64,000 bases of DNA, taken from Loktanella sp. (lineage in GTDB: Bacteria > Pseudomonadota > Alphaproteobacteria > Rhodobacterales > Rhodobacteraceae). Position 1 is the stretch's first letter; every line of letters starts with the position of its first letter. The stretch covers positions 20,689-84,688 of the forward strand of contig JAFPBO010000052.1 of assembly GCA_017390475.1 (NCBI GenBank), in the 5' to 3' direction. Shown one piece after another: positions 42,442 through 60,437 of the stretch. The position numbers were made by a program, and so were the translations under genes. The notes under the pieces are model-generated. The model saw nothing but the letters and a program-made list of their open reading frames with translations. It was not told the origin of the DNA and made no database searches.

Positions 42442-45400
42442 GTGGCAGCCTTGAAAAAGGACATAGACAGTGAATCTGTTGCAATCTCTGTATTGGATGC
42501 GGTTGCGCATCCCGTCTGGATATTTGCACGCGATACATACCATATTCTTTATGCCAACCCCAAAGCGCTAGACTGGCTTGGCTATGACAGGTCGGAACTG
42601 GAAACGCTTACGATCATCGAGCTTCGGCCTGAAGAAGAACGTGAGCGCCTCAAGCAACAAGTCCAGAACTTTACTCAGGAATCCTGTGATGCAGGGCTTT
42701 GGACCATTACCGCAAAATCGGGCCACCAACATCGTGCCACCTTTTATTGGCATCGGATGCAGTTGCGTGGAAGCGATCTTGTTCTGGCTACGATTATTGA
42801 TCAAAACCAGACATTGCAGGCGCAGCATGCATCACTGACAAAAGCTATTCAAGTCGCGGAGCAGGAAGCGCTATGGGCGGAAGATGCATATCGAAAAATA
42901 TTTGAAGCAGTTCCAGGCAAAATGCTGGTTCTGGAACCCAAAACCTATCGCATAATTGCTGTGACTGACGCGTTTCTTCCGATCATGATGAAGGAACGGT
43001 CAGAGATCTACGGAAAGCTTTTATTTGATATCTTTCCGGACAATCCTGATGATCCAGATGCAGACGGCGTCAGTCACTTGCGGGCGTCACTTCGGAAGGT
43101 CGAAACGCTTGGTTTGCAGGATGCAATGCCGGTTCAGCGGTATCCGATACGCAATCGCGATGGTGTGTTTGTCGATCGGTTCTGGATGCCGTTCAACAAA
43201 CCGGTCTTTGATAGCGCGGGCAAACTTATCTACATTATTCACCGCACAGAAGATGTGACTGCGCTACAGACTGTTGGTCCGCAGAACCGGCCAGACGAAA
43301 GTGACCAGCGATCCGGATCGCAAATCGATGTTTCACAGGCGCAGGAACTACAATCCGCAGTGATGTTGCTGCATGAATACGAAACGCGGTTGCGAACAGT
43401 CAGGCGGCTGTTCAAATTAGGCTCATGGGAATTCGATGTCGAACGTAACATCTACCACTTCTCGGACCGTGTGCTTGAAATCTTTGGGATTTCACCGGCA
43501 GATCGTGCACCGTTTAATGATTCTGTGTTCATGTCGCTTGTTCATCCCGATGATCGCGAGCGGATAAAATCAGAATTCACGCAGTTCCGGCAGAACCGAG
43601 AGCCGATTATCGCGTTCGAGCACCGTATCAAGCGACATGATGGCAGCATCGCTTATGTCAAAGGAATGGCAGAGCGGCATCACGTCGGCGCGCGCGAACT
43701 TGTTTTAGGATATATTCAGGACATTTCGGAATTTGCTTTAACTGAAACCAAACTGGCGGCAGCCCAGGAACTGATCCAGATCGCAGGCGAGAAACTCCAG
43801 ATCGGCGGCTGGCGCATTGATCGGGACATGCAGAGTTTGGTGTTGTCGGACAGCATGTATCGCATGTTTGAAGCTGATCCCGGCATTGAACCAGATTTTG
43901 GTGAAGGGTCAGACCTTCTTCAGTCGCCAGACCGGGACCGAATTATGAACCTGCTGCGCCGCTGTATCATGGATGGCCTCAGCTTTGACGAAGCTTTCAC
44001 AATTAACACTGTGAAAGCGCGGCCTATCAGGGTCAGGTTGCTGGGTTGGCCACATCTGGATCAGGCTGGTCGAATCATCGGGATTCAGGGTGCTGCGCAA
44101 GATCTCACTTTGCTGTACGAAGCTGAAGAACGGGTGGCAGAGGCGGATAGCCAAAGGCGCACAATACTGGAAAGCATCAGTGACGCCTTCTTCACGCTCG
44201 ATCATGATTTCCGCTTTACCTATTTGAATTCTCGTGCGGAAGATCTGTTGTTGCGTGGCCACGATAGTTTGATCGGTAAAGACATCTGGCAGGAATTTCC
44301 GCAGGCGATTGGGTCGGCATTCGAGTCGAGTTACCGTCGCGCAATGCGCACGGGCAAGACACAGCATTTTCAGGACCATTTCGCATTACTTGAGAAATGG
44401 TTTGATGTCTCGGCATATCCGGTCGCAGACGGACTGGCTGTATATTTCCGGGACGCGACAAAGGACGTCGAGAAAGCGCAGCATCTCAAATTGTTAGAAG
44501 CCGCCGCTTCACGCCTGAACGATGCTTTGGTGATCACAGAGTCAACGCCAACCGACAGCACGAAATGGCCAAAAATTGTCTACGTAAACCCCGCCGCAGA
44601 AAGAATGACAGGCTTTTCTCAAGCCGAGCTGGTCGGCACGAGCCCAAGCATTATGCAAGGGCCAGATACACCCGGACCCGAGCTGGAAAAACTGCATCGT
44701 GCGATGCGCGCGCACTTGCCAGTCAATGTCGAACTCAAGAATTATAACAAAGCAGGCCGCCCATATTGGGTCGACATCAGCATGTCGCCAGTCTTCGATG
44801 ACGCTGGCAATTGCACCAATTTTGTTGCTGTTGAACGCGATGTATCGGACTGGAAGAAAGCACAGGCCAAGCTTGAATTTGCTGCGGCCCATGATGCCGT
44901 CACCGGGCTTTGCAATCGTGCCCGATTTGAAGAGAATCTGAAGCGTGATCTGCAGCGTATGAAGTCTCGAGGGCAGCGTCTTGCGCTGATATTGATCGAT
45001 TGTGATAACTTCAAAGCAGTGAACGACACACTTGGTCATTCCGTAGGAGATGCCTTGTTACGCGCAATTGCTGAGAGACTCTCTGCGATTTTGCGCCCGG
45101 ATGCTGTTTTTGGTCGCCTTGGTGGTGATGAATTCGTCATATCTGTACCTGATATTGAAATAGCAGACGCCATGCAGTTTGCTGAATGGCTGCGTCGTGC
45201 GATGTTAGATCCCTTTATCGCTGACGGTGAACGCCTGTCAGTCACTGCAAGTATTGGCGTCGCAATATCACCCCACGATGCACAGGATGCCGACCAGTTG
45301 ATCCGCAATGCCGATATGGCGATGTACCGTTCAAAGGCGACTGGTAAAAATCAGGTCACAAGGTTCGACAAATCGTTGCGTGACGCGACTATCCGGCAAG

Positions 45401-46173
45401 CCGGTCTGACACAGGCATTACATGTGGCGCTTACGGAACAGACGGGCTTTCGTCTTGCGTATCAGCCCTTGTTTTGCGCAAGACGCAATCGGGTGATCGG
45501 CGCGGAAGCCTTGCTGCGCTGGGATCACACAGAACGTGGCAGCGTCAGCCCGGCCGAGTTTATCCCGGCCGCTGAAAATGCAGGGCTCATTCGGATGCTT
45601 GATCGTATGGTCATCGACAATACGATTGAACAATTGGCCCAATGGCGGCGGAACGGTTTGGCTTTTCCTATCTCAATCAATCTGTCGGCAATCAGCCTTC
45701 AGGATGCAGGGATCGGCGATGACATCGTGACCAAACTTGCCGCATCGAATGTCGCCGCAACACTTTTCGGTGTGGAAATCACCGAAAGCCTGTTTCTGGA
45801 AAGCTCCCAAAGTGTGTTGACCAACCTGCATGTGTTACGGCAGGCGGGGGTGAGGATTTCAATTGATGATTTTGGAACGGGACATTCCGCGCTCAGCTAT
45901 CTGCAGAAACTGCCTTTGGATGCGATCAAGATCGATCGCAGCTTTGTTGAACGCATCGAACATGCCGAGGGCGTTGGGAACCCATTGATCACAGCCATCA
46001 TCGCCATTGCAAATGCCTTGCAGTTGCGTGTTGTCGCCGAAGGCGTAGAAACGCAGGACCAAGCGGATTGGCTCATTCAAAACGACTGTGACGTACTTCA
46101 GGGATTTTTACTGGGCAAGCCGGTGGATGCGATTCGTTTTATAGAAAAATACGGCGATCTTTTGGGGCGCTAA
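42442..46173 (+). CDS. Multi-PAS GGDEF-EAL protein
   Basis: A 1243-residue cytoplasmic sensor-regulator without TM helices. About six PAS/PAC units occupy 1-800; examples are VLDAVAHPVWIFARDTYHI near 13-31 and TPSIMQG in a late LOV-like PAS near 730-790. A GGDEF domain follows with RLGGDEFVIS near 893-902, then an EAL domain with GAEALLRWDH, EITES, DDFGTGHSALSYL, KID and QGFLLGKPV, all phosphodiesterase residues present. There is no RxxD site. The late PAS lacks the LOV Cys motif NCRFLQ, so flavin light sensing is unlikely. The start is GTG 42442 or TTG 42451; ribosome-binding site support is weak. Confidence 0.85.
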   Translation: MAALKKDIDSESVAISVLDAVAHPVWIFARDTYHILYANPKALDWLGYDRSELETLTIIELRPEEERERLKQQVQNFTQESCDAGLWTITAKSGHQHRATFYWHRMQLRGSDLVLATIIDQNQTLQAQHASLTKAIQVAEQEALWAEDAYRKIFEAVPGKMLVLEPKTYRIIAVTDAFLPIMMKERSEIYGKLLFDIFPDNPDDPDADGVSHLRASLRKVETLGLQDAMPVQRYPIRNRDGVFVDRFWMPFNKPVFDSAGKLIYIIHRTEDVTALQTVGPQNRPDESDQRSGSQIDVSQAQELQSAVMLLHEYETRLRTVRRLFKLGSWEFDVERNIYHFSDRVLEIFGISPADRAPFNDSVFMSLVHPDDRERIKSEFTQFRQNREPIIAFEHRIKRHDGSIAYVKGMAERHHVGARELVLGYIQDISEFALTETKLAAAQELIQIAGEKLQIGGWRIDRDMQSLVLSDSMYRMFEADPGIEPDFGEGSDLLQSPDRDRIMNLLRRCIMDGLSFDEAFTINTVKARPIRVRLLGWPHLDQAGRIIGIQGAAQDLTLLYEAEERVAEADSQRRTILESISDAFFTLDHDFRFTYLNSRAEDLLLRGHDSLIGKDIWQEFPQAIGSAFESSYRRAMRTGKTQHFQDHFALLEKWFDVSAYPVADGLAVYFRDATKDVEKAQHLKLLEAAASRLNDALVITESTPTDSTKWPKIVYVNPAAERMTGFSQAELVGTSPSIMQGPDTPGPELEKLHRAMRAHLPVNVELKNYNKAGRPYWVDISMSPVFDDAGNCTNFVAVERDVSDWKKAQAKLEFAAAHDAVTGLCNRARFEENLKRDLQRMKSRGQRLALILIDCDNFKAVNDTLGHSVGDALLRAIAERLSAILRPDAVFGRLGGDEFVISVPDIEIADAMQFAEWLRRAMLDPFIADGERLSVTASIGVAISPHDAQDADQLIRNADMAMYRSKATGKNQVTRFDKSLRDATIRQAGLTQALHVALTEQTGFRLAYQPLFCARRNRVIGAEALLRWDHTERGSVSPAEFIPAAENAGLIRMLDRMVIDNTIEQLAQWRRNGLAFPISINLSAISLQDAGIGDDIVTKLAASNVAATLFGVEITESLFLESSQSVLTNLHVLRQAGVRISIDDFGTGHSALSYLQKLPLDAIKIDRSFVERIEHAEGVGNPLITAIIAIANALQLRVVAEGVETQDQADWLIQNDCDVLQGFLLGKPVDAIRFIEKYGDLLGR

Positions 46174-46215: not shown

Positions 46216-47307
46216 TCACAGGCCGAACCCGTCGAAACGAAGCCGAAAGCTGGCATCGACCTGGTCAAAAATATCGACTGTCGAATCGCGGCTGGTCACA
46301 CCGATCTCGACTAATGGTCCGCCGCTTGCTTGCCATTGATAGGTCAGCCCGATTGACTGGTCTTCTCTGCTGGTGCCCAGGAAACTGCCACCGCGTGCGG
46401 TGACGCGCCACAAACTTAGGCTGACCGGCTGGCGTGCCATCAGCCAGTGAACATCCAGAGCCATCCGATGCGCAAGCGCAGTGGTCCCGTCAACCGGAAC
46501 ACCAAACGTAACTGATGTTTCGGTGACAACCCTGTCCCAGACAGACTCTATGCCAAGGGTGGTGGTGATCTGCGCATATTCATCAAATTCGGTGCGGGCA
46601 AGCTGTCCGCTGACCTCGTGCCAGCCATGGTCTGTTTCAAAGATGGTCGACAGTGCCATACTGCCCCGTGTGATGCTTTGGTTGGTCAGGTCACGCGCGC
46701 TCCACCCTTGCACAAGGCAGGCATCAAGGAAGTTCCAGCGCACAAGATGGTCACGCGCGCAGAGTTGCACCGATCCATCAAAAACGCCAAGCGTGCTGGC
46801 TGGTGCCCATCCGGCCGCGCTACTGACTGTGGCTTCAAGATAGCTGCCCCGAGACAATGCCAGGCGCCCGACTCCACCGGCACCGAGCCCCAGAACTATG
46901 CCGGGGATCGCAAGCAGATCAGGATCCGCGTCGAACACCAGACCACCGAGCGAAAAACTGTCCTGGGCCAGTCCGCCGTTGATGTTTCTGTCATAGGCAA
47001 GGGTAGGACCCGCCGAGCTGTCCAGCAGAATGATGTTCGGCGTGTCGGCGTCGTGGTAAAAGCCTTGACGCGTCAGCCCGCTGCGCATCGCATCAACGAT
47101 TTCGCGCGGGGCTTGACCGGTCTCGATCCATTTCCCCCATACAAACATCCGCAGCCGTTCAGACCGTGCCAGTTGCGCGACCTGTGCGCTTGACGCGAAA
47201 GACTGCTTATCGACGCTATAGTCTGTTTCGGCACTGGCCATACTGCCCGCCGCTGACGCGGCCAGCACACCGGCAAGCAGACATTTAAGGTGTTGGCGCA
47301 AGGGCAT
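46216..47307 (-). CDS. Putative outer-membrane protein of unknown family
   Basis: 363 residues with a signal peptide (LRQHLKCLLAGVLAASAAG, cleavage near MASA-ET). An N-terminal soluble part (about 35-110) is followed by many alternating amphipathic strands (GSYLEATVSSAAGW, GIESVWDRVVTETSVTFG, IGLTYQWQASGGPLVEIGV). The chain ends FRLRFDGFGL, like the aromatic C-terminus of beta-barrel proteins. I do not recognise the family. It starts inside the end of the lipoprotein gene (23-bp overlap), so the two form one transcript divergent from the cellulose operon. It might supply an outer-membrane pore, as an inference. The ATG at 47307 is chosen because it gives the best signal peptide. Confidence 0.55.
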   Translation of the reverse strand: MPLRQHLKCLLAGVLAASAAGSMASAETDYSVDKQSFASSAQVAQLARSERLRMFVWGKWIETGQAPREIVDAMRSGLTRQGFYHDADTPNIILLDSSAGPTLAYDRNINGGLAQDSFSLGGLVFDADPDLLAIPGIVLGLGAGGVGRLALSRGSYLEATVSSAAGWAPASTLGVFDGSVQLCARDHLVRWNFLDACLVQGWSARDLTNQSITRGSMALSTIFETDHGWHEVSGQLARTEFDEYAQITTTLGIESVWDRVVTETSVTFGVPVDGTTALAHRMALDVHWLMARQPVSLSLWRVTARGGSFLGTSREDQSIGLTYQWQASGGPLVEIGVTSRDSTVDIFDQVDASFRLRFDGFGL

Positions 47308-48142
47308 TGGGATCGACACCGGCGAAAGCGCCATCAATCTTCACCACAGCGCCCTGATCAGTGCCGGATGCGGTGTAAAGGCCGGCAGTCGACAGCCCGT
47401 GCTGGCTGTTCGCATATGCCGGAGTGCCCCCGACATTGCCACGCAGGGTGCCATTAACCTTGTAAATCTCAGGGCCGACAGGATTGTGTACATCCACCGT
47501 GATCGGCCCGCCAAAGGCGCCACTGCGTTTATCAAACGGCAAACCGGCGACCACAATTTCCGTCCGTACCACTGATGCACCTGCTTGCCCGGTACGCAGA
47601 TTAAGATCGGCCGTGCCCGCGTCGAAATCGAGCACCAGATCGACTAGTCCCCTGCTATCGCTACCCGACAAAAGCGGGCCATCGTCAATCGTCACCCAGA
47701 CAAAGTTATCGCCCCGCAAATAGTAGAGACCTGTAGCGCCTGCCATCTGTTCCAGCGGTGCCTGATCCGTTGTCAGCCGCAACAGCCGGGTCGCGCTTGC
47801 GTCCGGTGCCGTGCCGGGGACTTCGGCGATCACTTCGATCACGACATTATTCGCATAAATCTGATCGTTCAGCGCAATCAGGCTGCGATAGCCGTCGGGC
47901 GAGTCCGGGTTCGTATCCTCGAATTGGGCCAGAATTTCTGCGTCACCTGGTTGCGACCGATTGACGCGGACCCGGTTGGCTCGCGTCGCATCGGTCAGAT
48001 AAACCTCGAATGCCGGGTCATCAGGCACATTAACCGCCGGTTCATCAGGTTCGGCCACATCCGGGGCCGGTGCCGTTGATGAGGAGCAGGCCGTCGCGAA
48101 AAGCAGCACGACTGCAAGCCGGAAAAAAGGAATTTTGTTCAT
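47285..48142 (-). CDS. Putative lipoprotein with TbpB-like beta-rich C-terminus
   Basis: 285 residues with a lipoprotein-type signal (NKIPFFRLAVVLLFATAC, Cys near 19) and a Pro/Asp/Glu-rich tether (about 22-45). Beta-rich repeats follow, ending with GAFGGPITVDVH and NGTLRGNVGG. The end resembles the small barrel of transferrin-binding-protein-like lipoproteins, but I cannot confirm that by eye. The frame opens at 48178; the ATG at 48142 fits the lipoprotein signal. The downstream gene overlaps it. Both are divergent from bcsN and may be part of the surface and biofilm programme. Confidence 0.55.
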   Translation of the reverse strand: MNKIPFFRLAVVLLFATACSSSTAPAPDVAEPDEPAVNVPDDPAFEVYLTDATRANRVRVNRSQPGDAEILAQFEDTNPDSPDGYRSLIALNDQIYANNVVIEVIAEVPGTAPDASATRLLRLTTDQAPLEQMAGATGLYYLRGDNFVWVTIDDGPLLSGSDSRGLVDLVLDFDAGTADLNLRTGQAGASVVRTEIVVAGLPFDKRSGAFGGPITVDVHNPVGPEIYKVNGTLRGNVGGTPAYANSQHGLSTAGLYTASGTDQGAVVKIDGAFAGVDPNALAPTP

Positions 48143-48178
48143 GTGGTTCTCATGAAATGTCAAATTTAAGAAATACAA

Positions 48179-48529
48179 AACAATGGTATAGTAACAAACA
48201 ACGGTGTTCGGATGTGGCGGAAATATCTGTCGGCGATGTCTGTAGTTTGCCGTCTTGGTTGCATCGCCTGTGTTGCGCGTCGGCTCGCTGCAGTAGGCAT
48301 CATGGGAATAGTCCGGTCAAGCGATGAATGCGAGTGCGGGGCGTTGTCATCGCAGCACGGCGGGACCGGCAGTGGCGGTTTTCAGTCACAGTTGTCAAAA
48401 AAACTTTAATTAGCCTTATGGTAGGCGTCATGTCCAGATACAGTCGAGACGTTACGAGTGCTGCCCGCTTCGACGGCAATTTTTACGATCAGCGTTTCAA
48501 TAGTGTGATTATTAGAAAAGTATTTGCCG
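48179..48529. promoter_or_regulatory. Divergent intergenic region between lipoprotein and cellulose operon
   Basis: About 350 bp with no convincing gene. It must hold promoters in both directions. A TTGTCA at 48392 followed 18-19 bases later by TTATGG/TATGGT is a weak sigma-70-like candidate on the plus strand. The A/T-rich run near 48395-48415 lies just before it. Confidence 0.3.
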
Positions 48530-49234
48530 ATGAGATGGTTGGCTCTATTACCCGTGTGCAAACATCGGGCTGTTTTAACATGGTTGACTAGACGGCCGTT
48601 TTTGGGTCGTTTGGGTCTGGGATCGGTGGTTTTACTTGCTGGATGCACAGCAATACCATTGCTGCCCAGCCTACCTGCAGGTGTTTTGCAGACGTCCCAG
48701 CAGTTTTTCATCACGCAACTTCGCCAGACCTGGGCAACACCGGATGGAGCCTTGATCGCGATCGAACGCAATCTGGGCGCAGAACGAGAGCAGGTCATCG
48801 GACTTCAGAACGATACAACAATGGCGGGCGACAATTATCTGTGGCTTCGCGCCCGCGTATCGCGCAACCGCTTTGATCTGGGTGATCTTTTATCACGCGC
48901 ACCTGCGGTTTCGACACCGTTTGCTGCGGTCAATGACCGCGATCTCAAGAGTGCACGCGATTCACTGGGAACCTACTTTTTTCTCGAATATCGCAGTGGC
49001 GGGCAAACGAACTGCGTCCTTGCCTTCCGGCAAATCGACAACACGTCGCGGCTGTTGCCAGCAGGCACAAATGTGCTTGAAGCGATGCTGCGCAACTGCG
49101 TCATCGGTGATTTCGCGCAGGCCCTGAGACCGATCACAGATCAGCAGATTTCAGTATCTGCGAATGCCACAGTCAGTGCGACGACCGGTGAAAGCCGGAT
49201 GCTGTCACCGCTTGCTGCTCCACAACTGCAATAA
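48530..49234 (+). CDS. bcsN: Cellulose biosynthesis protein BcsN
   Basis: 234 residues. A lipoprotein signal (RLGLGSVVLLAGCTA) is followed by a soluble periplasmic domain with QTSQQFFITQLRQTWATPDG and later GTYFFLEYRSGGQTNCVLAF. BcsN proteins occur in alphaproteobacterial cellulose operons directly before bcsA, as here (18 bp before it), and their molecular role is not known. The start is uncertain: TTG 48524, ATG 48530, or TTG 48584, which would give a compact lipoprotein signal (TRRPFLGRLGLGS). Confidence 0.7.
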   Translation: MRWLALLPVCKHRAVLTWLTRRPFLGRLGLGSVVLLAGCTAIPLLPSLPAGVLQTSQQFFITQLRQTWATPDGALIAIERNLGAEREQVIGLQNDTTMAGDNYLWLRARVSRNRFDLGDLLSRAPAVSTPFAAVNDRDLKSARDSLGTYFFLEYRSGGQTNCVLAFRQIDNTSRLLPAGTNVLEAMLRNCVIGDFAQALRPITDQQISVSANATVSATTGESRMLSPLAAPQLQ

Positions 49235-49252
49235 ACGTGAAAAGCTAATCAA

Positions 49253-51586
49253 GTGGGCATTGTCAAAAATTCATCGCGCAACCGGTTCTCTGCAACGCTC
49301 TTGTTGTGGGTCATCATCATCATCCCGTTCATTGCACTGGTCAGTGTGCCTACCTCGACCGGCGGTCAGGCATTCTTGTCGATAGTGGCGGTGGCGGTCG
49401 TAGCGCTGCTAAAGCCCTTTGCACGGTTGATGGTTGCGCGCTTTTTCCTGCTGGCCACGGCAAGCCTGATTGTGATGCGATACTATCTCTGGCGCGTGTT
49501 TGAGACGCTGCCTGAAGCTGGTTTCAACATTTCCTTTGTCTGCGCGATCCTGCTTCTGATCGTCGAAACCTACTCTATCGCGGTGTTTTTCCTCAGCGCC
49601 TTCATCACCGCCGATCCGACGCGCAGGCCGCTGCCGGAGACGGTCAAGCCGGAAGACCTGCCCACGGTCGATATTCTAATCCCCAGCTATAACGAACCGG
49701 TCGAAATGCTGAGCCTGACGATCGCTGCTGCAAAGAACATCATCTACCCACCTGAAAAACTGCGGGTGGTCCTGTGCGATGATGGTGGCACGGATCAACG
49801 CTGCAATTCCTCTGACGAAGTGCTGGCCAGAAACTCCCGTGCCCGGCGCGCAGAGCTGCAGGCGCTATGCCTCGAACTCGGCGCCACCTACAACACCCGC
49901 GCGCGTAACGAGAAGGCCAAGGCCGGCAATATGAGCGCGGCACTGGAAAAACTGACGGGCGAACTGGTTGTGGTTTTCGATGCCGACCACGTGCCCAGCC
50001 GCGACTTTCTGGCACGCACTGTCGGGTATTTTGCGGAAGATCCAAAGCTGTTCCTGGTGCAGACACCGCATTTTTTCATCAACAAGGATCCGATCCAGCG
50101 TAATCTTCAACTCAGCCCGGCTTGCCCGCCAGAAAATGAGATGTTTTATAGCAGGATTCACCGTGGCTTAGACCGTTGGGGCGGCGCGTTCTTTTGTGGC
50201 TCTGCGGCGGTGTTGCGGCGATCAGCGCTTGACAGTGTGGGCGGCTTCGCAGGCGAGACGATCACCGAAGATGCAGAGACGGCGCTTGAAATTCACGCCT
50301 CTGGTTGGAAAAGCCTGTATATAGACCGCGCGATGATCGCGGGCCTGCAGCCGGAAACATTCGCATCATTCATCCAGCAACGTGGGCGTTGGGCGGCGGG
50401 GATGATGCAGATGCTCATGCTCAAGAACCCGCTGTTCCGCAAAGGTCTACGGCTGCCGCAGCGGCTTTGCTACATCAACTCCATGAGCTTTTGGCTGTTT
50501 CCGTTGATGCGGCTGGTTTATCTATATGCTCCGCTTGTCTACCTGTTCTTCGGGTTGGAAATCTTTGTGTCCACCGTTCAGGAAGTCATGGCTTACATGC
50601 TGGGCTATCTGGCCGTTTCGTTCATGGTGCAGAACGCCCTATATGGCAGTTCCCGCTGGCCATTGATCTCCGAGATATACGAGGTTGCTCAGGCCCCATA
50701 TCTGGCAAGAGCGGTGTTGCGCACTGTGTTGCGTCCGCGCGGGGCAAAGTTCAACGTCACGGCCAAGGATGAAACACTGAACCAGGATTACATCTCACCG
50801 ATCCATTGGCCCTTGACGATCCTTTTTCTGACCATGCTGGCCGGTATTGTTGCACTGGTCATCCGCTGGATCGCATTTCCGGGCGACCACGCGGTGCTGA
50901 CCGTTGTTGGCGGCTGGGCGGTGTTCAACTTTATCCTTGTTAGCGTTGCTTATCGCTCGGTGGCAGAGCGCCAGCAGCGCCGCGCATCACCACGGATAGA
51001 AATGGATGCGGCGGCAGAGGTCTGGCTTGAAGGCACAGCCGATCAGAAACTGTCAGGTCGCATCAGAGATGCGTCAACCAGTGGGGCAAAGCTTTTGCTG
51101 CCAACAAGTTTCGAGAATTTCAAGGTCACGGACCTGCAGGGCCTGGAAGTTCGCTTCATGCCCATTTTTCCCGATGTTCCACGTCTGCAAACCCCGGTTC
51201 GTGCAACGATCATGTCGGCAAAAGTCACGCAGGAGGGTATCGAGATCGGCACCCTGATCGCCGCCGAACAACCTGCTGCTGTGCGCGAAGCGGTCGCATT
51301 CCTGATTTTTGGCGACAGTGAGAACTGGCGCAAAGTGCGGAATTCCACGCGCACGCCCAAAGGCTTGATTGCAGGACTGATTTACGCGTTCTGGCTTTTT
51401 GTCAGCGGGTTTCCTTTTTTGCTGCGTGATCTAGCACGTGAACCCGGCCGTAAGGCGAACCAGGGCACAGAGGATGAATCAAAATCCGTGCCTGTGCATC
51501 TGTTGGCCTTCGGGGTCGATATCGAGAACCGCGAACAGATGGTTGCCGCTGCGCGCGATGCAGATCTGTTGGAGAAAAAGGCATGA
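49253..51586 (+). CDS. bcsA: Cellulose synthase catalytic subunit (UDP-forming) with PilZ domain
   Basis: A 777-residue inner-membrane GT2 processive synthase that makes and translocates beta-1,4-glucan from UDP-glucose. Two N-terminal TM pairs, then the D,D,D,QxxRW set: DDGG near 176-179, DADH at 243-246, TED at 338-340 and QQRGRW at 375-380, with FFCGS at 313-317. More TM helices follow to about 570. The PilZ domain carries QQRRASPR (574-581) and DASTSG (607-612), the two c-di-GMP-binding motifs, so c-di-GMP activation is expected. The start is GTG at 49253. The stop overlaps bcsB (ATGA). Confidence 0.95.
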   Translation: MGIVKNSSRNRFSATLLLWVIIIIPFIALVSVPTSTGGQAFLSIVAVAVVALLKPFARLMVARFFLLATASLIVMRYYLWRVFETLPEAGFNISFVCAILLLIVETYSIAVFFLSAFITADPTRRPLPETVKPEDLPTVDILIPSYNEPVEMLSLTIAAAKNIIYPPEKLRVVLCDDGGTDQRCNSSDEVLARNSRARRAELQALCLELGATYNTRARNEKAKAGNMSAALEKLTGELVVVFDADHVPSRDFLARTVGYFAEDPKLFLVQTPHFFINKDPIQRNLQLSPACPPENEMFYSRIHRGLDRWGGAFFCGSAAVLRRSALDSVGGFAGETITEDAETALEIHASGWKSLYIDRAMIAGLQPETFASFIQQRGRWAAGMMQMLMLKNPLFRKGLRLPQRLCYINSMSFWLFPLMRLVYLYAPLVYLFFGLEIFVSTVQEVMAYMLGYLAVSFMVQNALYGSSRWPLISEIYEVAQAPYLARAVLRTVLRPRGAKFNVTAKDETLNQDYISPIHWPLTILFLTMLAGIVALVIRWIAFPGDHAVLTVVGGWAVFNFILVSVAYRSVAERQQRRASPRIEMDAAAEVWLEGTADQKLSGRIRDASTSGAKLLLPTSFENFKVTDLQGLEVRFMPIFPDVPRLQTPVRATIMSAKVTQEGIEIGTLIAAEQPAAVREAVAFLIFGDSENWRKVRNSTRTPKGLIAGLIYAFWLFVSGFPFLLRDLAREPGRKANQGTEDESKSVPVHLLAFGVDIENREQMVAAARDADLLEKKA

Positions 51587-53772
51587 AATCTCATTTTTGC
51601 CTGCTTTCCCTTGTGGCGCTACTGTGCACCGGCCAGCTTCAGGCACAAGTCACTGCTGACCCTGCGACGCCGGCTGACAATGGGCGCATTGACCTGCGAT
51701 CAATGATCGACAGCATGACACCCACCCCGGTGCCACCAGCGCAGCAGACGCTGGGACAGACCGATCCGGCCATCCTGCCTTCTTTGCCTGTCCTTGAACG
51801 CAGCGCGGCTGAGGTTGATCCTGACCAGGCAGCGGCTGCTGACGTTGCGTTTTATCCGGCGCTGTCCGATCTGGGTGCTGGCGTGATCCGCCTTTCTGGC
51901 GAGTTTGCCGAGGCAAACCTGGTTATTGATGTGCCGGTCGTCACGGATGTTCAGGAACTGCGCATCGCTTACCGCACCAGTATCAATGTCCTGCCGGAAC
52001 TGTCGTCGGTCACCGTTCTTTTGAACGGGCGAGAGATCGCGCAGTTCAGCCCGCGGTCTTTCGAAGGTTTTGCCACTGTGCAACTGCCTATGGAAAACCT
52101 GATAGAGGGCCAGAACCAGTTGATGGTTCAGATATCGCAGTCGCACCGTATTTTCTGTGGACCAGAAGCCAGTTTCGATATCTGGACAGAAATTGACCTG
52201 CGTCAAAGCGGCATCAGTGTAGCGGCGCAAACGGGTATACCCGATCAGGCTGCTTTGCGGCGCGCATTGATTGCTCAGCTTGCAACAGGCGAACCCGTCT
52301 ATGTCGTCGCCGCACAACCTCCGACGCAGGATGAACTGGCCGAGCTGAGCCTGCGGCTGGGTGGGCTGACACCGCAACTTACCCCGAAAGTTGTCGTTCA
52401 GAACCCATTCGCGCCAGCACCAACCAATGCCGGGCTCTCGCGGATTGCGATAATTGACCGGGCAGGCCCGGATTTTCAGATCAGGCGCGCGCGCGATGGT
52501 GCTTTGGTGCTGGTTATGCGCAGCCTGTCAGATACAGATGTGCTGGACAGTTTCCTGCCGCGACCTGACCCGATCACAGGGCCAGTACGTTTTGTCCCCG
52601 GTTCGGATGTAACATTGGCCCAGATGGGGCTGCCACCTGTCGCTATGCGCGGCCGGTATGGACGGTCCGATCTGAATTTTCTTTTGCCACCCGACTGGCT
52701 GCTACTGGCATCGCAAAGTGCTGAAATCGGGCTGATTTATGATTACGCAGAAGGTTTGCCGGAAACCGCGCTGATGCTGTTGAAAGTTAACGACACGACC
52801 GTGCGACTGTTGCCGCTGTTCGGGCAGGGCGGCGAAGAAATTCCCGTGCTGCAGGTCAGTTTCCCCGCGCGGCTGCTGTCACCCGGCATCAATGCGCTGA
52901 CGGTCGAAACGATCATTCCTGGCGAGCCACCGGATATGCCCTGTCCGCGCATCGAGGGCGAATTGCTGCGTGTGTCTGATCAGACAACCCTGCGAATTCC
53001 TGCGTCACCAAGCATGCAGTTTCCCGATCTTGGTGCCCAGCTTCTGAGGCTGGCCCCTGAGAATATCGCTGCAGTCACCCGTGATACTCGCGAAAATGTC
53101 GCAACATCGGTGGCTGATGCGCTGCACGTTCTGTTCCGGCCCTTGGCAGAAACAGCCACCACCGGAAGCCTTGCGATCACAAGCGTGTTCCATGCTGATG
53201 CGGTGCCTCTGGAACAACTGGGCCTGACTCGCCAGATGGTCGAGACAATGCTGGTGCCTGCAGCCATGATGACAGAAAGTGATACTGTTGCCGAAAACAG
53301 GTCACTGGGTGCCCGTGTGATCGGTTTTGTGGGAAACACGATAACTGCGATATCGGGTTTGGCGCGTCCGCGTGATCCTGCATTGGCGGATTGGGTGGAC
53401 GGGCGGCATGGTGACGCTTTGTTGCTCATGCCTGATCTGCAGGACCGCGATGTGCTGTGGCTGGTCGTAGCACAGGGGGCCGACCCCGAACGTGTCGCCG
53501 CAGCTGTGACCGCTGGCCGTATCAGTGCGACAGGTCCCAGCGGTCAATTGTCAATCCTGACTCACGACGGTACATGGCAAAGCTGGATGTCCCCCGCGCA
53601 GGGGCCGGAATTGCTTGAACCGCTGTCAATCGCCAATGTCCGGACGGTTGCAGGAAATTATGCATCCTGGTCGCCGCTGGGCTATGCGACACTCATGGGT
53701 GCTTTGTTGATTCTATCCGTCATCGTCGCGCTTTTGTTCGTTGTCCGAAACCGTGGGAGCCGAAAACGATGA
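51583..53772 (+). CDS. bcsB: Cellulose synthase regulatory subunit BcsB
   Basis: A 729-residue periplasmic partner of BcsA, with a signal peptide (to about 22, GQLQAQ), an acidic/Pro-rich stretch (about 40-90), alternating carbohydrate-binding and flavodoxin-like modules (LRIAYRTSINVLPELSSVTV near 126-145, DFQIRRARDGALVLVMRS), and a C-terminal TM anchor (TLMGALLILSVIVALLFVV near 704-722). BcsB guides the glucan into the periplasm and is required for BcsA activity. It overlaps by ATGA with both neighbours. Length and order fit the Rhodobacter-type BcsB. Confidence 0.92.
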   Translation: MKSHFCLLSLVALLCTGQLQAQVTADPATPADNGRIDLRSMIDSMTPTPVPPAQQTLGQTDPAILPSLPVLERSAAEVDPDQAAAADVAFYPALSDLGAGVIRLSGEFAEANLVIDVPVVTDVQELRIAYRTSINVLPELSSVTVLLNGREIAQFSPRSFEGFATVQLPMENLIEGQNQLMVQISQSHRIFCGPEASFDIWTEIDLRQSGISVAAQTGIPDQAALRRALIAQLATGEPVYVVAAQPPTQDELAELSLRLGGLTPQLTPKVVVQNPFAPAPTNAGLSRIAIIDRAGPDFQIRRARDGALVLVMRSLSDTDVLDSFLPRPDPITGPVRFVPGSDVTLAQMGLPPVAMRGRYGRSDLNFLLPPDWLLLASQSAEIGLIYDYAEGLPETALMLLKVNDTTVRLLPLFGQGGEEIPVLQVSFPARLLSPGINALTVETIIPGEPPDMPCPRIEGELLRVSDQTTLRIPASPSMQFPDLGAQLLRLAPENIAAVTRDTRENVATSVADALHVLFRPLAETATTGSLAITSVFHADAVPLEQLGLTRQMVETMLVPAAMMTESDTVAENRSLGARVIGFVGNTITAISGLARPRDPALADWVDGRHGDALLLMPDLQDRDVLWLVVAQGADPERVAAAVTAGRISATGPSGQLSILTHDGTWQSWMSPAQGPELLEPLSIANVRTVAGNYASWSPLGYATLMGALLILSVIVALLFVVRNRGSRKR

Positions 53773-54839
53773 ATCGTCGAGAAATACTGCTTGCAGCGGG
53801 ATGCTGTTTGCTTCCGGGGGCCGGTTTTGGACAGAGTGGCGCTGCCATTCTGACGCATCCGCTGATGCCTGCATGGACAGCCTGGAAAGAAACCTATCTT
53901 GCGCAGGACGGCAGGGTTGTCGATAGCCTGCAACAAGGCGCAAGCCATTCCGAAAGTCAGGGATATGGCCTTCTTTTGGCTGCCACTGTTGGTGACGAAA
54001 CCGCATTTGACCTGATCGACGATTGGACAGTGGCGACACTGGCGGTCCGGGACGATAACCTTCTGGCATGGCGTTGGCTGCCAACTGATCCGCGCGGGGT
54101 GTCGGATTTCAATAATGCAAGTGACGGTGATCTGTTCTATGTCTGGGCGTTGCTGCGGGCTGCTGACGCTTTTGATCGGCCTGAATTGCGTGACCGCGCA
54201 TCTGCAATGGCCAGTGATCTGGCCACTAGCTGTATTGTGCCACATCCCGATCAGGGCGGGCGGTTGTTGTTTGCGCCGGCGGCGTCCGGGTTCAATCGCG
54301 ATACCGGCATCGTCATGAATTTTTCCTATTACATGTCGCGTGCAATGTTCGACATCGCCACACAGACCGGCATCACTGCATTTGCCACCTGCGCCACGGA
54401 TGGCGAAGCGTTGCTGGCAGACCTGGCTGCGACCGGCCTGACACCCGATTGGACAGAAGTCCGCGCAGGCGACCTGGTCACTGCCACTGGTTTGTCGGAT
54501 GCTCATGGCTATGAAGCCTTGCGGGTACCATTGTTCTTGATCTGGTCGGGCAGGGCATCGCATCCGGCGGTCGCACGTCAGGCGGCCTTTCATCAGATGG
54601 CAGGTCTTTCCGGCTCTATGACCCCAACAGTGATGGACCGTCTGACAGGTGAAGTCCGTGAAACCAGCCCCGATGCCGGTTACGCGGCCATTGTCGCCCT
54701 GACTAACTGTGCCCGTCAGGGCCTTGACGGATCAAGCGTGCCGTTTTTCACGGTCGATCAACCCTATTATCCCGCAACATTGCACCTTATGACGCTTCTT
54801 GCGATTATCGAGGCAAATCCCAATTGTATTGTCACATGA
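53769..54839 (+). CDS. bcsZ: Periplasmic endo-1,4-beta-glucanase, GH8 (BcsZ)
   Basis: 356 residues with a signal peptide (NRREILLAAGCCLLPGAGFG, ending near GFGQ). The GH8 catalytic acid is in SHSESQGYGLLLA (Glu near 62), and the conserved Asp pair in NNASDGDLFYVWAL (near 119-121). BcsZ trims mislocalised or newly made cellulose in the periplasm and is part of most bcs operons. It overlaps bcsB and the next gene by ATGA, so all five genes are likely one transcript. Confidence 0.92.
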   Translation: MNRREILLAAGCCLLPGAGFGQSGAAILTHPLMPAWTAWKETYLAQDGRVVDSLQQGASHSESQGYGLLLAATVGDETAFDLIDDWTVATLAVRDDNLLAWRWLPTDPRGVSDFNNASDGDLFYVWALLRAADAFDRPELRDRASAMASDLATSCIVPHPDQGGRLLFAPAASGFNRDTGIVMNFSYYMSRAMFDIATQTGITAFATCATDGEALLADLAATGLTPDWTEVRAGDLVTATGLSDAHGYEALRVPLFLIWSGRASHPAVARQAAFHQMAGLSGSMTPTVMDRLTGEVRETSPDAGYAAIVALTNCARQGLDGSSVPFFTVDQPYYPATLHLMTLLAIIEANPNCIVT

Positions 54840-56275
54840 CCCCTATATCGCGCTTTTGTCTCAGCCTTGGATTTGTGGTCTTTGGATCCATTGCACAGGC
54901 TCAATCAACCCCGAACGCCGATGATTTGCGCGCCTTGCGGTTCTACATTCAACAGGAAGACACGCCATCGGTCACGGCCGAAATCCGGAGACTGCAAACT
55001 GTTTATCCCGAATGGTCGCCGCCAGAGACCTTGACCGATCTGTTGCAGACACAGCCAACAACTGAACTCGACGATATCTATGCCCGGATCGCCCGTAACG
55101 ATCTGGATGGTGCAAGGCGCGTTCTAGCTGAAACACGTACGGCATTTCCGTCATGGACACCGCCGGACAACATCAATGGGCTGATTAACCTTGCGCAAGG
55201 GCAGATCGACTTTAACGCAGCCATTGGGCGGCGCGACATACCGGCTGCCATTGCGCTGGCATCAGAAATCCCCGATCTTTTGCGCTGCGATCGGATCAAC
55301 AACACTTGGCAACTGGCGGATTTGCAGATTGCTGCGGGCAATGATGCGGCGGCGTTGGCTGCTTTCTCGCAGATCGTGCGGACCTGCACATCAGCGCCAG
55401 ACCTGATTGCGACGATCGAAAAGGCAAATGCGCTTGCCGATGTTGAAGAGCTTCGCGATCTGGTCGCGACAGCACAGCGGCGTCTACCTGCTGCGACCGC
55501 GCAATTCGCGGCGCTCGAAACCCGGTTACTGGCCGGCCGCGGGGTGGCTGCAACTACACCGGCAACCACAGCGACGACCACACCGGCAACACCAAGCCCC
55601 ACAGCGACACCGACGCCGCCGACAACACCGTCAACAACGACACCTGCCAGCACTGTCACGGCCCAGCCCACCGCTGCCAGCCCCGCGCCAGCGACCGCCC
55701 CACCGCTGTCGGCGCTGCGTTTGTCGGGGGATAATCGTCTCAATGCTGTCAGATCCGCAGCACAGGCCGAGAACTTTGCCGAATGCGCTGCAAGATCAGC
55801 GCAGCCGCGTTCGTTGGACGTGGCCTATGAACGTGCATGGTGCGTGTTCAACCTCGACAGACCGCTGGAGGCGCTGGCGCTGTTCACGGCGGCTTCATCC
55901 ATGTCCGGTACTGTGGGGCGCGATGCCCGCTATGGGATGGCATTGTCATATCTGCGGCGCGACATGACCGATGCGGCGTCACAGCTTGCGGCAACGACTG
56001 ATTTTCTCCCCGAACAAAGACGCACCGTCGAAGCGATCATTCTCGATCAGCGCGGTGTCAGGGCCTATCAGCAGGAAGATTACCCAAGCGCGATCCTGTT
56101 CTTTGACGGGCTTGAAAGACTTGAGGGCGGTCTGCGTCGTGATCTCGCGATCCTGCGCGCCTATGCCTATCTCAATTCAGGGGACCGCAGCACCGCGCGG
56201 GCTGAATTTCGGCGTCTGGACGCAGAACTGTCAACAGAGGAAACACGCACCGGGATGCGGGCTTCGCTGGGGTAG
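54836..56275 (+). CDS. Periplasmic TPR-like protein ending the cellulose operon (BcsC/BcsK-type substitute?)
   Basis: 479 residues with a signal peptide (ISRFCLSLGFVVFGSIAQAQ). The N-terminal part (25-235) and C-terminal part (295-479) are made of helical repeats with TPR-like spacing (DVAYERAWCVFNLDRPLEAL, DQRGVRAYQQEDYPSAILFF). A low-complexity Thr/Pro/Ala linker at about 237-291 joins them. BcsC-type exporters carry TPRs plus a C-terminal barrel; here no barrel exists. The position at the end of bcsN-A-B-Z makes it the likely periplasmic scaffold. Some alphaproteobacterial operons use a TPR protein in place of BcsC, from general knowledge. Confidence 0.72.
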   Translation: MTPISRFCLSLGFVVFGSIAQAQSTPNADDLRALRFYIQQEDTPSVTAEIRRLQTVYPEWSPPETLTDLLQTQPTTELDDIYARIARNDLDGARRVLAETRTAFPSWTPPDNINGLINLAQGQIDFNAAIGRRDIPAAIALASEIPDLLRCDRINNTWQLADLQIAAGNDAAALAAFSQIVRTCTSAPDLIATIEKANALADVEELRDLVATAQRRLPAATAQFAALETRLLAGRGVAATTPATTATTTPATPSPTATPTPPTTPSTTTPASTVTAQPTAASPAPATAPPLSALRLSGDNRLNAVRSAAQAENFAECAARSAQPRSLDVAYERAWCVFNLDRPLEALALFTAASSMSGTVGRDARYGMALSYLRRDMTDAASQLAATTDFLPEQRRTVEAIILDQRGVRAYQQEDYPSAILFFDGLERLEGGLRRDLAILRAYAYLNSGDRSTARAEFRRLDAELSTEETRTGMRASLG

Positions 56276-56347: not shown

Positions 56348-57352
56348 CTAACGCTGGACCGCCATTGTCGGCGGTGTCACGGACTGTGACAGGCGCACGC
56401 AATTGCGGCCATGCCGCTTAGCCTCATACAGCGCTGCATCGGCCATTTCCATCCAGGCGTGACCATCGTGACTTGCGTGGCGCATGGCTATGCCGACGCT
56501 CGTGGTAACGACGAGGTCGGGATAATCAACCAACGCCAGCGCAGCGATGCTCCTGCGAACGGTTTCAGCGACCTCCTGGGCTGCATCTTCATCGTAACCG
56601 GGCAAGATCATCGCAAGTTCTTCGCCGCCAAGCCGACCGGCAGTGGCAATATCCGGGCAATTGTCTAGCAAGACGCCAGCCACGTCCTGCAGTACAGCAT
56701 CACCAGCGGCATGACCAAATCTGTCATTGATCGCCTTGAAATGATCCAGATCCAGGAAAAGCAGCGCGGCGTCACGTTGTTGACCCATCACTGCCTCGAT
56801 TTCCTGTACCAAGGCCCGCCGCGTGGAAAGCCCGGTCAATGCATCAACCGAAGCAACCTGACGCAATTCAAGCTCGTTCATTACCAGATCCGCAAAGCTG
56901 ACCAACATCCGCTCTTGTTCGGGGCTGAAACTGCGCGGCTTGTAGTCAATCGCGCAAAGCGCGCCGATGGCATAGCCATCCGCAGTGATGATCGGCGCAC
57001 CAAGATAGGACCGGATGTAAGGCTCGCCGGTCACCATCGGGTTATCCGCAAACCGCGGATCAAGGGTTGCATCTGCAATGTTCATACATTGCGTTTTGCG
57101 GATGGTGTGATCGCAAAATGCGATTTCACGCTTGGTTTCGGTCCCATCCAGGCCCTGAACCGACTTGAACCATTGCCGGTCCCGGTCAATCAGCGTGACC
57201 GCCGCAATCGGTACATCGAATATTGTTGTAACCAGTCTGGTGATCTTCTCGAATTCCGGCTCGCGCGGTGTGTCGAGAACGTGCAGGCGGTCCAGTGCGC
57301 ATTGGCGCCCGAATTCGTCGTCTGGCCTGAATTTGATTGGACGGCTTGTCAA
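56348..57352 (-). CDS. GAF-GGDEF protein with GGEEL active-site motif
   Basis: 334 residues. A GAF domain (about 25-165; FDVPIAAVTLIDRDRQWFKS, EIAFCDHTIR, SYLGAPIITADGYAIGALCA) is followed by a GGDEF domain with DALTGLSTRRAL, DLDHFKAINDRFGH and RLGGEELAMIL. The last residue of the signature is Leu rather than Phe, which in some cyclases is tolerated. There is no RxxD site. The start is TTG 57352, overlapping the stop of the small upstream gene by four bases (TTGA), so translation is coupled to it. Confidence 0.82.
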   Translation of the reverse strand: MTSRPIKFRPDDEFGRQCALDRLHVLDTPREPEFEKITRLVTTIFDVPIAAVTLIDRDRQWFKSVQGLDGTETKREIAFCDHTIRKTQCMNIADATLDPRFADNPMVTGEPYIRSYLGAPIITADGYAIGALCAIDYKPRSFSPEQERMLVSFADLVMNELELRQVASVDALTGLSTRRALVQEIEAVMGQQRDAALLFLDLDHFKAINDRFGHAAGDAVLQDVAGVLLDNCPDIATAGRLGGEELAMILPGYDEDAAQEVAETVRRSIAALALVDYPDLVVTTSVGIAMRHASHDGHAWMEMADAALYEAKRHGRNCVRLSQSVTPPTMAVQR

Positions 57353-58289: not shown

Positions 58290-60437
58290 TTGGCATGGTT
58301 TATCGTCTTGACTGATTTTGGAACAACCGACAAGTTTTATAGGGATGCACTAGACAGCGCACAGCAAGGCGTGTGGGACTACAACATCGAGACTGGCGCA
58401 AAGTTTTACTCAAGGACCTGGTATCAGATCCGGGGACTTAACCCGGATTCCTTGCCTTATAGCAACGATGATGCTGAGTGGTTGAATACAGTTCATCCCG
58501 ACGACCGAAAGTTGGCAGAACAGCAGACACGGCAACTTAACGCTGGCCAGATTGACGAAGTGAACTATGAGTACAGAGAACGGCACGCAGATGGTCGTTG
58601 GATTTGGATCATGTGTCGCGGCCGGGCGGTAGAGTGGGATGCAAACAAGGATCCTGTTCGGTTTGTTGGAACCGATACAGATATCAGCGCAGTCAAGGCG
58701 TCAGAAGAAGAACTTCAACATACACATAAGAAGCTTCAGCTTGCTCTGTCATCCATTGACGCAGGCATATGGGAATACCGCAGTACCGACAATTCTGTCT
58801 TTTGGGATGCCAGACAAAGGCTGATTTATGGTGTACCGCTAGACCTATCTCCTCTGCCTCGCGACGTATGGGAGAAGTCAATACATCCTGATGATCTGGA
58901 CGATGCAGTGAGGAAGGCAGACGAAGCTCTTGTCCAACGATGTGATTATTCGCTTTCATACAGAATTATACGTCGTGACGGTGAGATGCGTCATATCGAC
59001 AGTCACGTCAGCTTTCTTCACAGGGACGATCAAGGATATTCGTTGGTCGGTCTTGACCTTGATGTCACAGAAGACTGGCTGCGGTCACAGGAATTAATTT
59101 TGGCCAACCAAAATGCTGAAAACCGAAATATAGAGCTTGAGAAGACACGTCAGAAACTTGAAAATACGTTGCTTTATGATACGCTTACTGGTCTCGGCAA
59201 CCGACGCTCTCTTGAAAACCTGCAAAAGGCGACATCTTTAAATCCCAGCATTCACAAGTCAGGTCCAGCGGTCATGTTGATGAACCTGGACGGTTTCAAA
59301 CAGATTAATTCGGTCTTTGGACACGACGCTGGTGATTATGTTTTGCGCCATACCGCAGACATCCTAAAAAATGTAAATCACTTTGATACGTTTCCTGTCA
59401 GAACTGGTGGTGATGAGTTTGCGCTTTTTCTACCTGATCCGCCCGATGACAATGCTATCTTGGAGTTGGCAACGGATTTGATTGCGCAAGTGTCACAACC
59501 CGTAAATTACCAAGGCTTTAAATGCAGGGTAGGGATAAGCATTGGTGTGGCAAGGACCGATCCAGATGTTGGTGACAGCTCGCAATTGTTGCGTGATGCT
59601 GACCTTGCGCTCAACAAAGCGAAATCAACCGGCAGAAAACGTGTCGCATTCTGCGAACCTGCCTTACGTAACGAAGCGGCACGCGTTAAGGGGCTGGGTG
59701 ACGAGCTCCTGATTGCTGTTGAACGACGGGAATTTACCTGCGCTTACCAGGCCCAGTTCGATATGCAGACCGGAGAACTCAGTGGTATCGAGGCGCTTGC
59801 GCGTTGGCCACGTCGCGATGGGTTCATCAGACAGCCTTCTGCTTTTCTACCTGTTGCTGAAGTCATGGACCTTATTGCTTTGGTAGATAAAATTATTCTT
59901 GAGAAAGCTGTTGCTGATTTTCAATCCTGGAACAAAACTGGACTAAAGGTACCTAAACTTTCGGTAAATATATCCAAGTCACGGTTGAGGGATGGAAATC
60001 TGATAAATGACATCAAGTCCTTTGATATAGATTACACTACATTGTGTCTTGAACTACTAGAGTCCAGCTTTTTGGAAGAATATGATCCTTATATTTCAAA
60101 TAACCTTGAAGGCTTGAAATCGCTTGGGATAGAATTTGAAGTTGATGATTTTGGAACAGGCCATGCATCAATTCTAAGTCTTGTCCGCCTTGAACCCAAT
60201 AGACTGAAAATAGACCGAGCGTTTATTGAGCCAATACAACAATCACAGCAGCAGGCTCAACTTGTGAAATCAATTATTGAAATTGGGCATCTTCTTGGTA
60301 TGAAAATTATTGCTGAGGGTGTTGAAACAACAGATCAGTATGACATCCTGCGCGGGATGGGATGCGATTACTGTCAAGGCTATCTATTAGCACGTCCAAT
60401 GTCTTTCGCCGAGTTTACCAGGAAATTCACAGTGTAA
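58290..60437 (+). CDS. PAS-PAS-GGDEF-EAL protein
   Basis: 715 residues, no TM helices. Two PAS_3-type domains (about 15-130 and 145-275; WDYNIETGAKFYSRTWYQI, then REKHADGRW-like RERHADGRWIWIMCRG) lead into GGDEF (TGLGNRRSLENL, MNLDGFKQINSVFGHDAGD, RTGGDEFALFL) and EAL (GIEALARWPRRDG, LELLES, DDFGTGHASILSL, KID, EGVETT, QGYLLARPM). No RxxD site. Phosphodiesterase residues are complete. Base composition is lower in G+C than neighbouring housekeeping genes. The start TTG 58290 lacks a clear ribosome-binding site; TTG 58308 is an alternative. Confidence 0.83.
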   Translation: MAWFIVLTDFGTTDKFYRDALDSAQQGVWDYNIETGAKFYSRTWYQIRGLNPDSLPYSNDDAEWLNTVHPDDRKLAEQQTRQLNAGQIDEVNYEYRERHADGRWIWIMCRGRAVEWDANKDPVRFVGTDTDISAVKASEEELQHTHKKLQLALSSIDAGIWEYRSTDNSVFWDARQRLIYGVPLDLSPLPRDVWEKSIHPDDLDDAVRKADEALVQRCDYSLSYRIIRRDGEMRHIDSHVSFLHRDDQGYSLVGLDLDVTEDWLRSQELILANQNAENRNIELEKTRQKLENTLLYDTLTGLGNRRSLENLQKATSLNPSIHKSGPAVMLMNLDGFKQINSVFGHDAGDYVLRHTADILKNVNHFDTFPVRTGGDEFALFLPDPPDDNAILELATDLIAQVSQPVNYQGFKCRVGISIGVARTDPDVGDSSQLLRDADLALNKAKSTGRKRVAFCEPALRNEAARVKGLGDELLIAVERREFTCAYQAQFDMQTGELSGIEALARWPRRDGFIRQPSAFLPVAEVMDLIALVDKIILEKAVADFQSWNKTGLKVPKLSVNISKSRLRDGNLINDIKSFDIDYTTLCLELLESSFLEEYDPYISNNLEGLKSLGIEFEVDDFGTGHASILSLVRLEPNRLKIDRAFIEPIQQSQQQAQLVKSIIEIGHLLGMKIIAEGVETTDQYDILRGMGCDYCQGYLLARPMSFAEFTRKFTV

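Follow-up and report, generated by a model that had tools for sequence, protein, structure and literature searches.

A predicted Slam-like secretor and candidate cargo lipoprotein beside a BcsC-less cellulose operon in Loktanella sp.

We analyze a 64,000-nucleotide stretch of a Loktanella sp. genome (positions 20,689 to 84,688 of contig JAFPBO010000052.1, assembly GCA_017390475.1; hereafter, "the window"), in which a cellulose synthase (bcs) operon without bcsC lies head to head with two overlapping genes, one for a predicted 363-residue outer-membrane barrel and one for a 285-residue lipoprotein. The first-pass annotation of this DNA proposed that these two proteins, together with the tetratricopeptide repeat (TPR) protein encoded at the end of the operon, could form a split cellulose exporter. 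In that reading the barrel would be the pore and the TPR protein the scaffold, and the lipoprotein would assemble or plug the pore. Our analysis points elsewhere: the pair is probably a small Slam-like system dedicated to secreting a single surface lipoprotein, which would act on the adjacent cellulose, most simply by anchoring or organizing it.

The locus and the two divergent genes

The window lies on a contig of 84,688 bases, in a genome of 4.1 Mb assembled into 56 contigs; its relevant features are collected in Table 1. The gene content of the operon fits a type III bcs operon, i.e., bcsN-bcsA-bcsB-bcsZ followed by a gene for a TPR protein where bcsC would be expected. As the first-pass annotation had stated, BcsC is missing: its barrel domain (PF05420, BCSC_C) has no match in the window's genome, nor in any of 149 genomes from the same family, eight of which have bcsA above the TIGR03030 cut-off, and the E. 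coli positive control was matched. The repeat protein at the operon's end (479 residues, counted from the ATG at 54836) has no barrel; all its Pfam matches at E < 0.01 are TPR models (TPR_19 above its cut-off).

Table 1. Features of the cellulose locus and the divergent gene pair (window positions)
Feature	Position	Strand	Basis
TPR-less Slam-like outer-membrane barrel, 363 residues (assignment from homology)	46216..47307	-	Predicted model; profile-profile match to PF04575-family proteins
Predicted surface lipoprotein, 285 residues, likely barrel cargo	47285..48142	-	Lipobox Cys19; fold model; adjoins barrel gene
Intergenic region separating the divergent pair from the bcs operon	48143..48523		Open reading frame coordinates; same head-to-head layout in genome G205 (locus L067)
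BcsN-like lipoprotein	48524..49234	+	Homologous to genes preceding bcsA at other bcs loci, some matching PF17038
bcsA, cellulose synthase catalytic subunit	49253..51586	+	TIGR03030, 891 bits, above cut-off
bcsB	51583..53772	+	PF20916 and PF03170, above cut-off
bcsZ, glycoside hydrolase family 8 (GH8) endoglucanase	53769..54839	+	PF01270, E 2.2e-41
Periplasmic TPR protein replacing BcsC, no barrel	54836..56275	+	TPR matches; BcsK-like by position and content

The 363-residue protein carries a signal peptide, recognized by eye, and is modeled as a barrel of 14 strands (residues 92-358) behind three short helices (residues 34-80), in agreement with the earlier description of a strand-rich outer-membrane protein. 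The model was built from three sequences and has a mean predicted local distance difference test (pLDDT) score of 72.2, with residues 107-135 below 50. Many unrelated outer-membrane barrels (OccD, TamA, FhaC/CdiB, CymA, PelB) scored alike in fold searches; judged from the model, the fold search indicates a barrel and does not identify its family. Sequence searches of the PDB with the barrel and lipoprotein profiles returned nothing meaningful, and among the 60 of 204 PDB matches listed for the PF04575 profile there were TPR or other repeat proteins and no solved Slam structure.

The family assignment comes from profile comparison. Direct scans gave no useful Pfam or NCBIfam match for either gene of the pair. 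A search with the 363-residue protein found matches at 12 places in 11 of the 149 genomes, its own included. One relative (L011, in G077) is longer, has TPR-like sequence, and matches PF04575, the family of Slam or type XI secretion system (T11SS) proteins (DUF560), above the cut-off. An alignment of 11 barrel proteins (A1), with this TPR-bearing protein left out, was compared by hhalign with same-family PF04575 proteins (27 of 30 loci; L030, L035, and L036 were dropped for poor or duplicate frames), giving a probability of 99.2% over 252 columns versus 1.5% in a reversed-column control. When ten cellulose-linked barrels were compared with nine PF04575 relatives, the probability was 98.1% over 273 columns; the profile of these nine relatives also matched TPR proteins, through its N-terminal part. 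On these comparisons, the barrel belongs with Slam-type barrels for protein secretion.

The likeness to Slam extends to the collinear match over the barrel, the similar C-terminal end, the adjoining lipoprotein gene, and the strand count, which is also 14 for the PF04575 family (PMC8406197). Unlike Slam, the window's protein has three short helices and no TPR domain at its N-terminus (by Pfam scan and model alike), belongs to a clade tied to cellulose genes, and has two invariant cysteines. These residues, 183 and 197, are conserved in all 11 proteins of alignment A1 and all 10 of alignment A7, a pattern that makes a disulphide likely. Weighing against the assignment is the failure of two defining PF04575 tests, the TPR domain and the direct match: the window's barrel has no PF04575 match at E <= 1, none of the 11 aligned barrels has one at E <= 0.1, and a PF04575 search of the window's genome matched only a different gene. 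Because both are lacking, we file the protein as a TPR-less Slam variant and not as a standard PF04575 member. The window's genome also has a normal Slam with TPR-like sequence and a PF04575 match at E 4.9e-22 (L021 3-809 and 928-2259, G000:C46), and the gene just upstream of it looks TbpB-like by eye.

The lipoprotein was also described correctly by the first-pass annotation. Its lipobox cysteine (Cys19), assigned by eye, is invariant in 10 of 10 aligned family members, the window's included. In the model and by fold search, its C-terminal half is an 8-strand barrel of the TbpB fold; the N-terminal half is poorly modeled. The lipoprotein gene adjoins the barrel gene in all 10 complete copies. 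With the starts used, the two share 23 bases in the window, and in every member they either overlap or are at most 16 bases apart. The lipobox and the C-terminal barrel are shared with known T11SS cargo (TbpB, NHBA, fHbp, and hemophilin; PF01298), which we list partly from PMC8406197 and partly as general background. Unlike these, the window's lipoprotein is tied to bcs genes and has no PF01298 match, nor does any of the 10 family members at E <= 1. In G051, a second member of the lipoprotein family (L075) is partial; it lies on another contig and runs into a stretch of Ns. An apparent giant lipoprotein in the same genome proved to be an open frame running through an N stretch and was dropped.

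Further TPR-less barrel relatives, outside the cellulose-linked group, occur as eight copies in G030, G046, G057, G086, G090, G107 (two copies), and G273. Seven of the eight are in six genomes without a TIGR03030 match above the cut-off; G273 has bcsA. An adjacent predicted lipoprotein was found for six of the eight copies (that of G273 called by eye only) and for five of the seven in genomes without bcsA above the cut-off, and none was recognized beside the first G107 copy or that of G030. Five of the six neighbor lipoproteins were scanned: three match PF01298, two of them above the cut-off, and two match nothing. This is the arrangement typical of a secretor encoded beside its cargo. Since TPR-less barrels also occur without bcsA, the loss of TPRs is not tied to cellulose, and because relatives without cellulose genes share it, it is not evidence that the TPR protein of the operon is the barrel's partner.

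Co-occurrence with cellulose genes

The pair is strongly tied to cellulose genes in the genomes searched. Matches to the lipoprotein profile were found in 10 of 394 family genomes (at most six candidates were scored per genome, here and in the class-wide search below). A search with the window's BcsA at E <= 1e-100, in 394 genomes drawn the same way, gave matches in 28. All 10 lipoprotein genomes, which represent ten different genera, are among the 28, far above chance (p 6e-13; for the six genomes outside the seed alignment alone, p 3e-8; both values assume independent genomes, which genomes are not). Wenxinia marina DSM 24838 and Cereibacter changlensis JA139, both Rhodobacteraceae, are carriers of the pair. 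Six genomes with BcsA-like matches below the TIGR03030 cut-off (358-422 bits), G077 among them, were not counted as having bcsA. The co-occurrence with bcs genes that the first-pass annotation called for is thus borne out.

Physical linkage is seen in a part of these genomes. In 6 of the 10, no more than 14 kb separates the pair from bcsA (p 2e-11 under a simple model that likewise treats genomes as independent; the distance was picked with the data already in view). The layouts vary: head to head before bcsN (the window and G205), upstream in the same direction (G050), downstream of the TPR gene in tail-to-tail orientation (G175), and other arrangements in G361 and G356. The pair is on a different contig from bcsA in G051, an assembly of 7 contigs, and linkage was not seen in the fragmented assemblies of G091, G222, and G325; G091 was the sole genome that a search of its genus brought up. 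In a barrel tree with seven PF04575 loci as outgroup, the cellulose-linked barrels form one clade (98/97), and 8 barrels fall in no group. The distribution of the pair over the BcsA tree is patchy: it takes 7 changes, versus a shuffled mean of about 8.5, with 88-101 of 500 shuffles as low.

No lipoprotein of this family was found in 18 of the 28 bcsA genomes. For 16 of the 28, the barrel profile gave no match at E <= 0.001; these include assemblies of only 4, 5, 8, and 10 contigs (G018, G303, G386, G239). The 12 genomes with a barrel match are the ten linked ones, G273, and G037, whose weak match overlaps a PF04575 gene. Given these absences, the pair is not a general cellulose exporter. A class-wide sample of 385 genomes yielded, besides the window's own, a single and weak lipoprotein match (E 2e-4), and in G294, the sole other genome of the same genus sampled, neither bcsA nor the lipoprotein was found.

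These distributions bear on the possibility that the pair is a T11SS module unrelated to cellulose, serving for instance metal or haem capture, and that it accompanies bcsA through shared ancestry or a genomic island. Known cargo of this fold do serve metal or haem uptake (PMC8406197), and the four genomes in which the pair is off the bcsA contig or not visibly linked to it would fit. On the other hand, the association holds in ten of ten genomes across as many genera, the six close placements differ in arrangement, and the pair is scattered on the BcsA tree and so is not the baggage of one clade. We regard an unrelated module as unlikely.

Interpretation of the pair

That the two genes encode a dedicated Slam-like secretor and its cargo is, in our view, very probable, because the barrel matches Slam-like proteins, the lipoprotein is predicted to have a TbpB-like fold, and the barrel's relatives have lipoprotein neighbors. 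If so, a role in cellulose is likely, though it is deduced from genetic linkage: in the genomes searched, this lipoprotein family never occurred without cellulose synthase. The lipoprotein would be a Sec substrate, acquire its lipid at the invariant cysteine, and travel to the outer membrane, from which the 14-strand barrel would move it to the cell surface. There, its C-terminal 8-strand barrel would fold and its N-terminal half would be displayed. Its job would most likely be to hold, organize, or sense the cellulose secreted by the bcs machine, by analogy with the dedicated matrix adhesins that serve other exopolysaccharides. The cellulose itself would leave by a separate outer-membrane route involving the TPR protein.

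The split exporter of the first-pass annotation fares less well. A genome without BcsC, a predicted barrel, and a lipoprotein found only alongside bcsA in the genomes searched speak for it; assembly of the three proteins into an exporter is not supported, as the barrel is Slam-like and the lipoprotein is predicted to fold like Slam cargo. So frequent an absence as that of this barrel would not be expected of a general cellulose pore, and TPR-less relatives occur in genomes without bcsA, mostly beside predicted lipoproteins of their own. The BcsC barrel has 16 strands. PgaA, the exporter of poly-N-acetylglucosamine (PNAG), also has 16 (PMC8406197), versus 14 here. In favor of export, PF04575 touches PgaA in a published network (PMC8406197), PelB, which exports a polysaccharide, is one of the many barrels with a similar fold score, and PMC7112194, noting that some alphaproteobacteria have lost BcsC, suggests that their export mechanism is a novel one. 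Altogether, we consider the split exporter improbable. Because 16 of the 28 bcsA genomes have no such barrel, the barrel next to the operon probably does not explain in general how alphaproteobacteria without BcsC export cellulose.

A narrower version would have a TPR-less Slam-type barrel and its TbpB-fold lipoprotein recruited into cellulose secretion wherever the pair is present, the barrel being the cellulose exit, or a part of it, together with the separate TPR protein. We keep this reading in view because PMC8406197 notes some PgaA homologues within PF04575 and proposes that the two secretion types have features in common; it would mean a protein-secretion barrel turned polysaccharide pore, and we think it quite improbable. 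It is very improbable that the pair regulates cellulose output, e.g., by sensing polymer at the surface and signaling to nearby diguanylate cyclases: GGDEF-type genes do adjoin the pair or the bcs operon at several loci, but they also flank pair-free bcs loci (L079, L084, L085), and no signaling domain was matched in the lipoprotein or the barrel.

Among known systems, the pair has a close counterpart in the marine cluster 3 T11SS of Rhodobacteraceae, in which a barrel gene lies near a cargo lipoprotein of 282-375 residues and which is probably from the same bacterial family (PMC12282271). Unlike the pair studied here, the published loci are reported to be accompanied by thymidylate synthase, lactoylglutathione lyase, and DUF1194 genes, and the word cellulose is absent from the main text of that paper. 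In listings of the open-licence literature, we found no link between Slam, DUF560, or T11SS and cellulose or exopolysaccharide. This suggests that a Slam-like module whose cargo is tied to a polysaccharide system, and not to animal hosts or metal uptake, is apparently new. Should the lipoprotein bind cellulose outside the cell, it would offer a handle on the attachment and flocculation of these bacteria, and a TPR-less Slam, if that is what the barrel is, could reveal what the TPR domain of Slam does.

The remainder of the operon and its surroundings

Apart from its neighbors, the operon is ordinary. Type III operons with BcsK, such as that of strain N1B, likewise combine bcsN-like, bcsA, bcsB, and bcsZ genes with one for a TPR protein that replaces BcsC; an adjacent pair of this kind does not figure in the sections consulted of the N1B description (PMC6559018). 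A homologue of the TPR gene is present at 25 of the 28 bcsA loci, and the remaining three loci are truncated by contig ends. The protein encoded at 48524-49234 has no PF17038 (BcsN) match in the Pfam scan, and its assignment as BcsN-like depends on homologues: PF17038 was matched by 5 of 10 proteins scanned from other bcs loci, 2 of them at or above the cut-off, in a set that included one ABC-transporter ATPase (L086) that is not a BcsN homologue. BcsS (PF17036), which we take to be part of some type III operons, was matched in none of the 28 bcsA genomes, and no control genome matched it either.

Three cyclic di-GMP (c-di-GMP) proteins flank the cellulose operon in the window, a PAS-GGDEF-EAL protein by domain scan (42442-46173) and, judged by eye, a GAF-GGDEF-like protein (56348-57352) and a PAS-GGDEF-EAL-like protein (58290-60437). 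In another genome of the set (G130), two cellulose synthase operons (L053, L054) lie about 47 kb apart on the same contig; neither is accompanied by the lipoprotein-barrel pair, and both carry the TPR gene.

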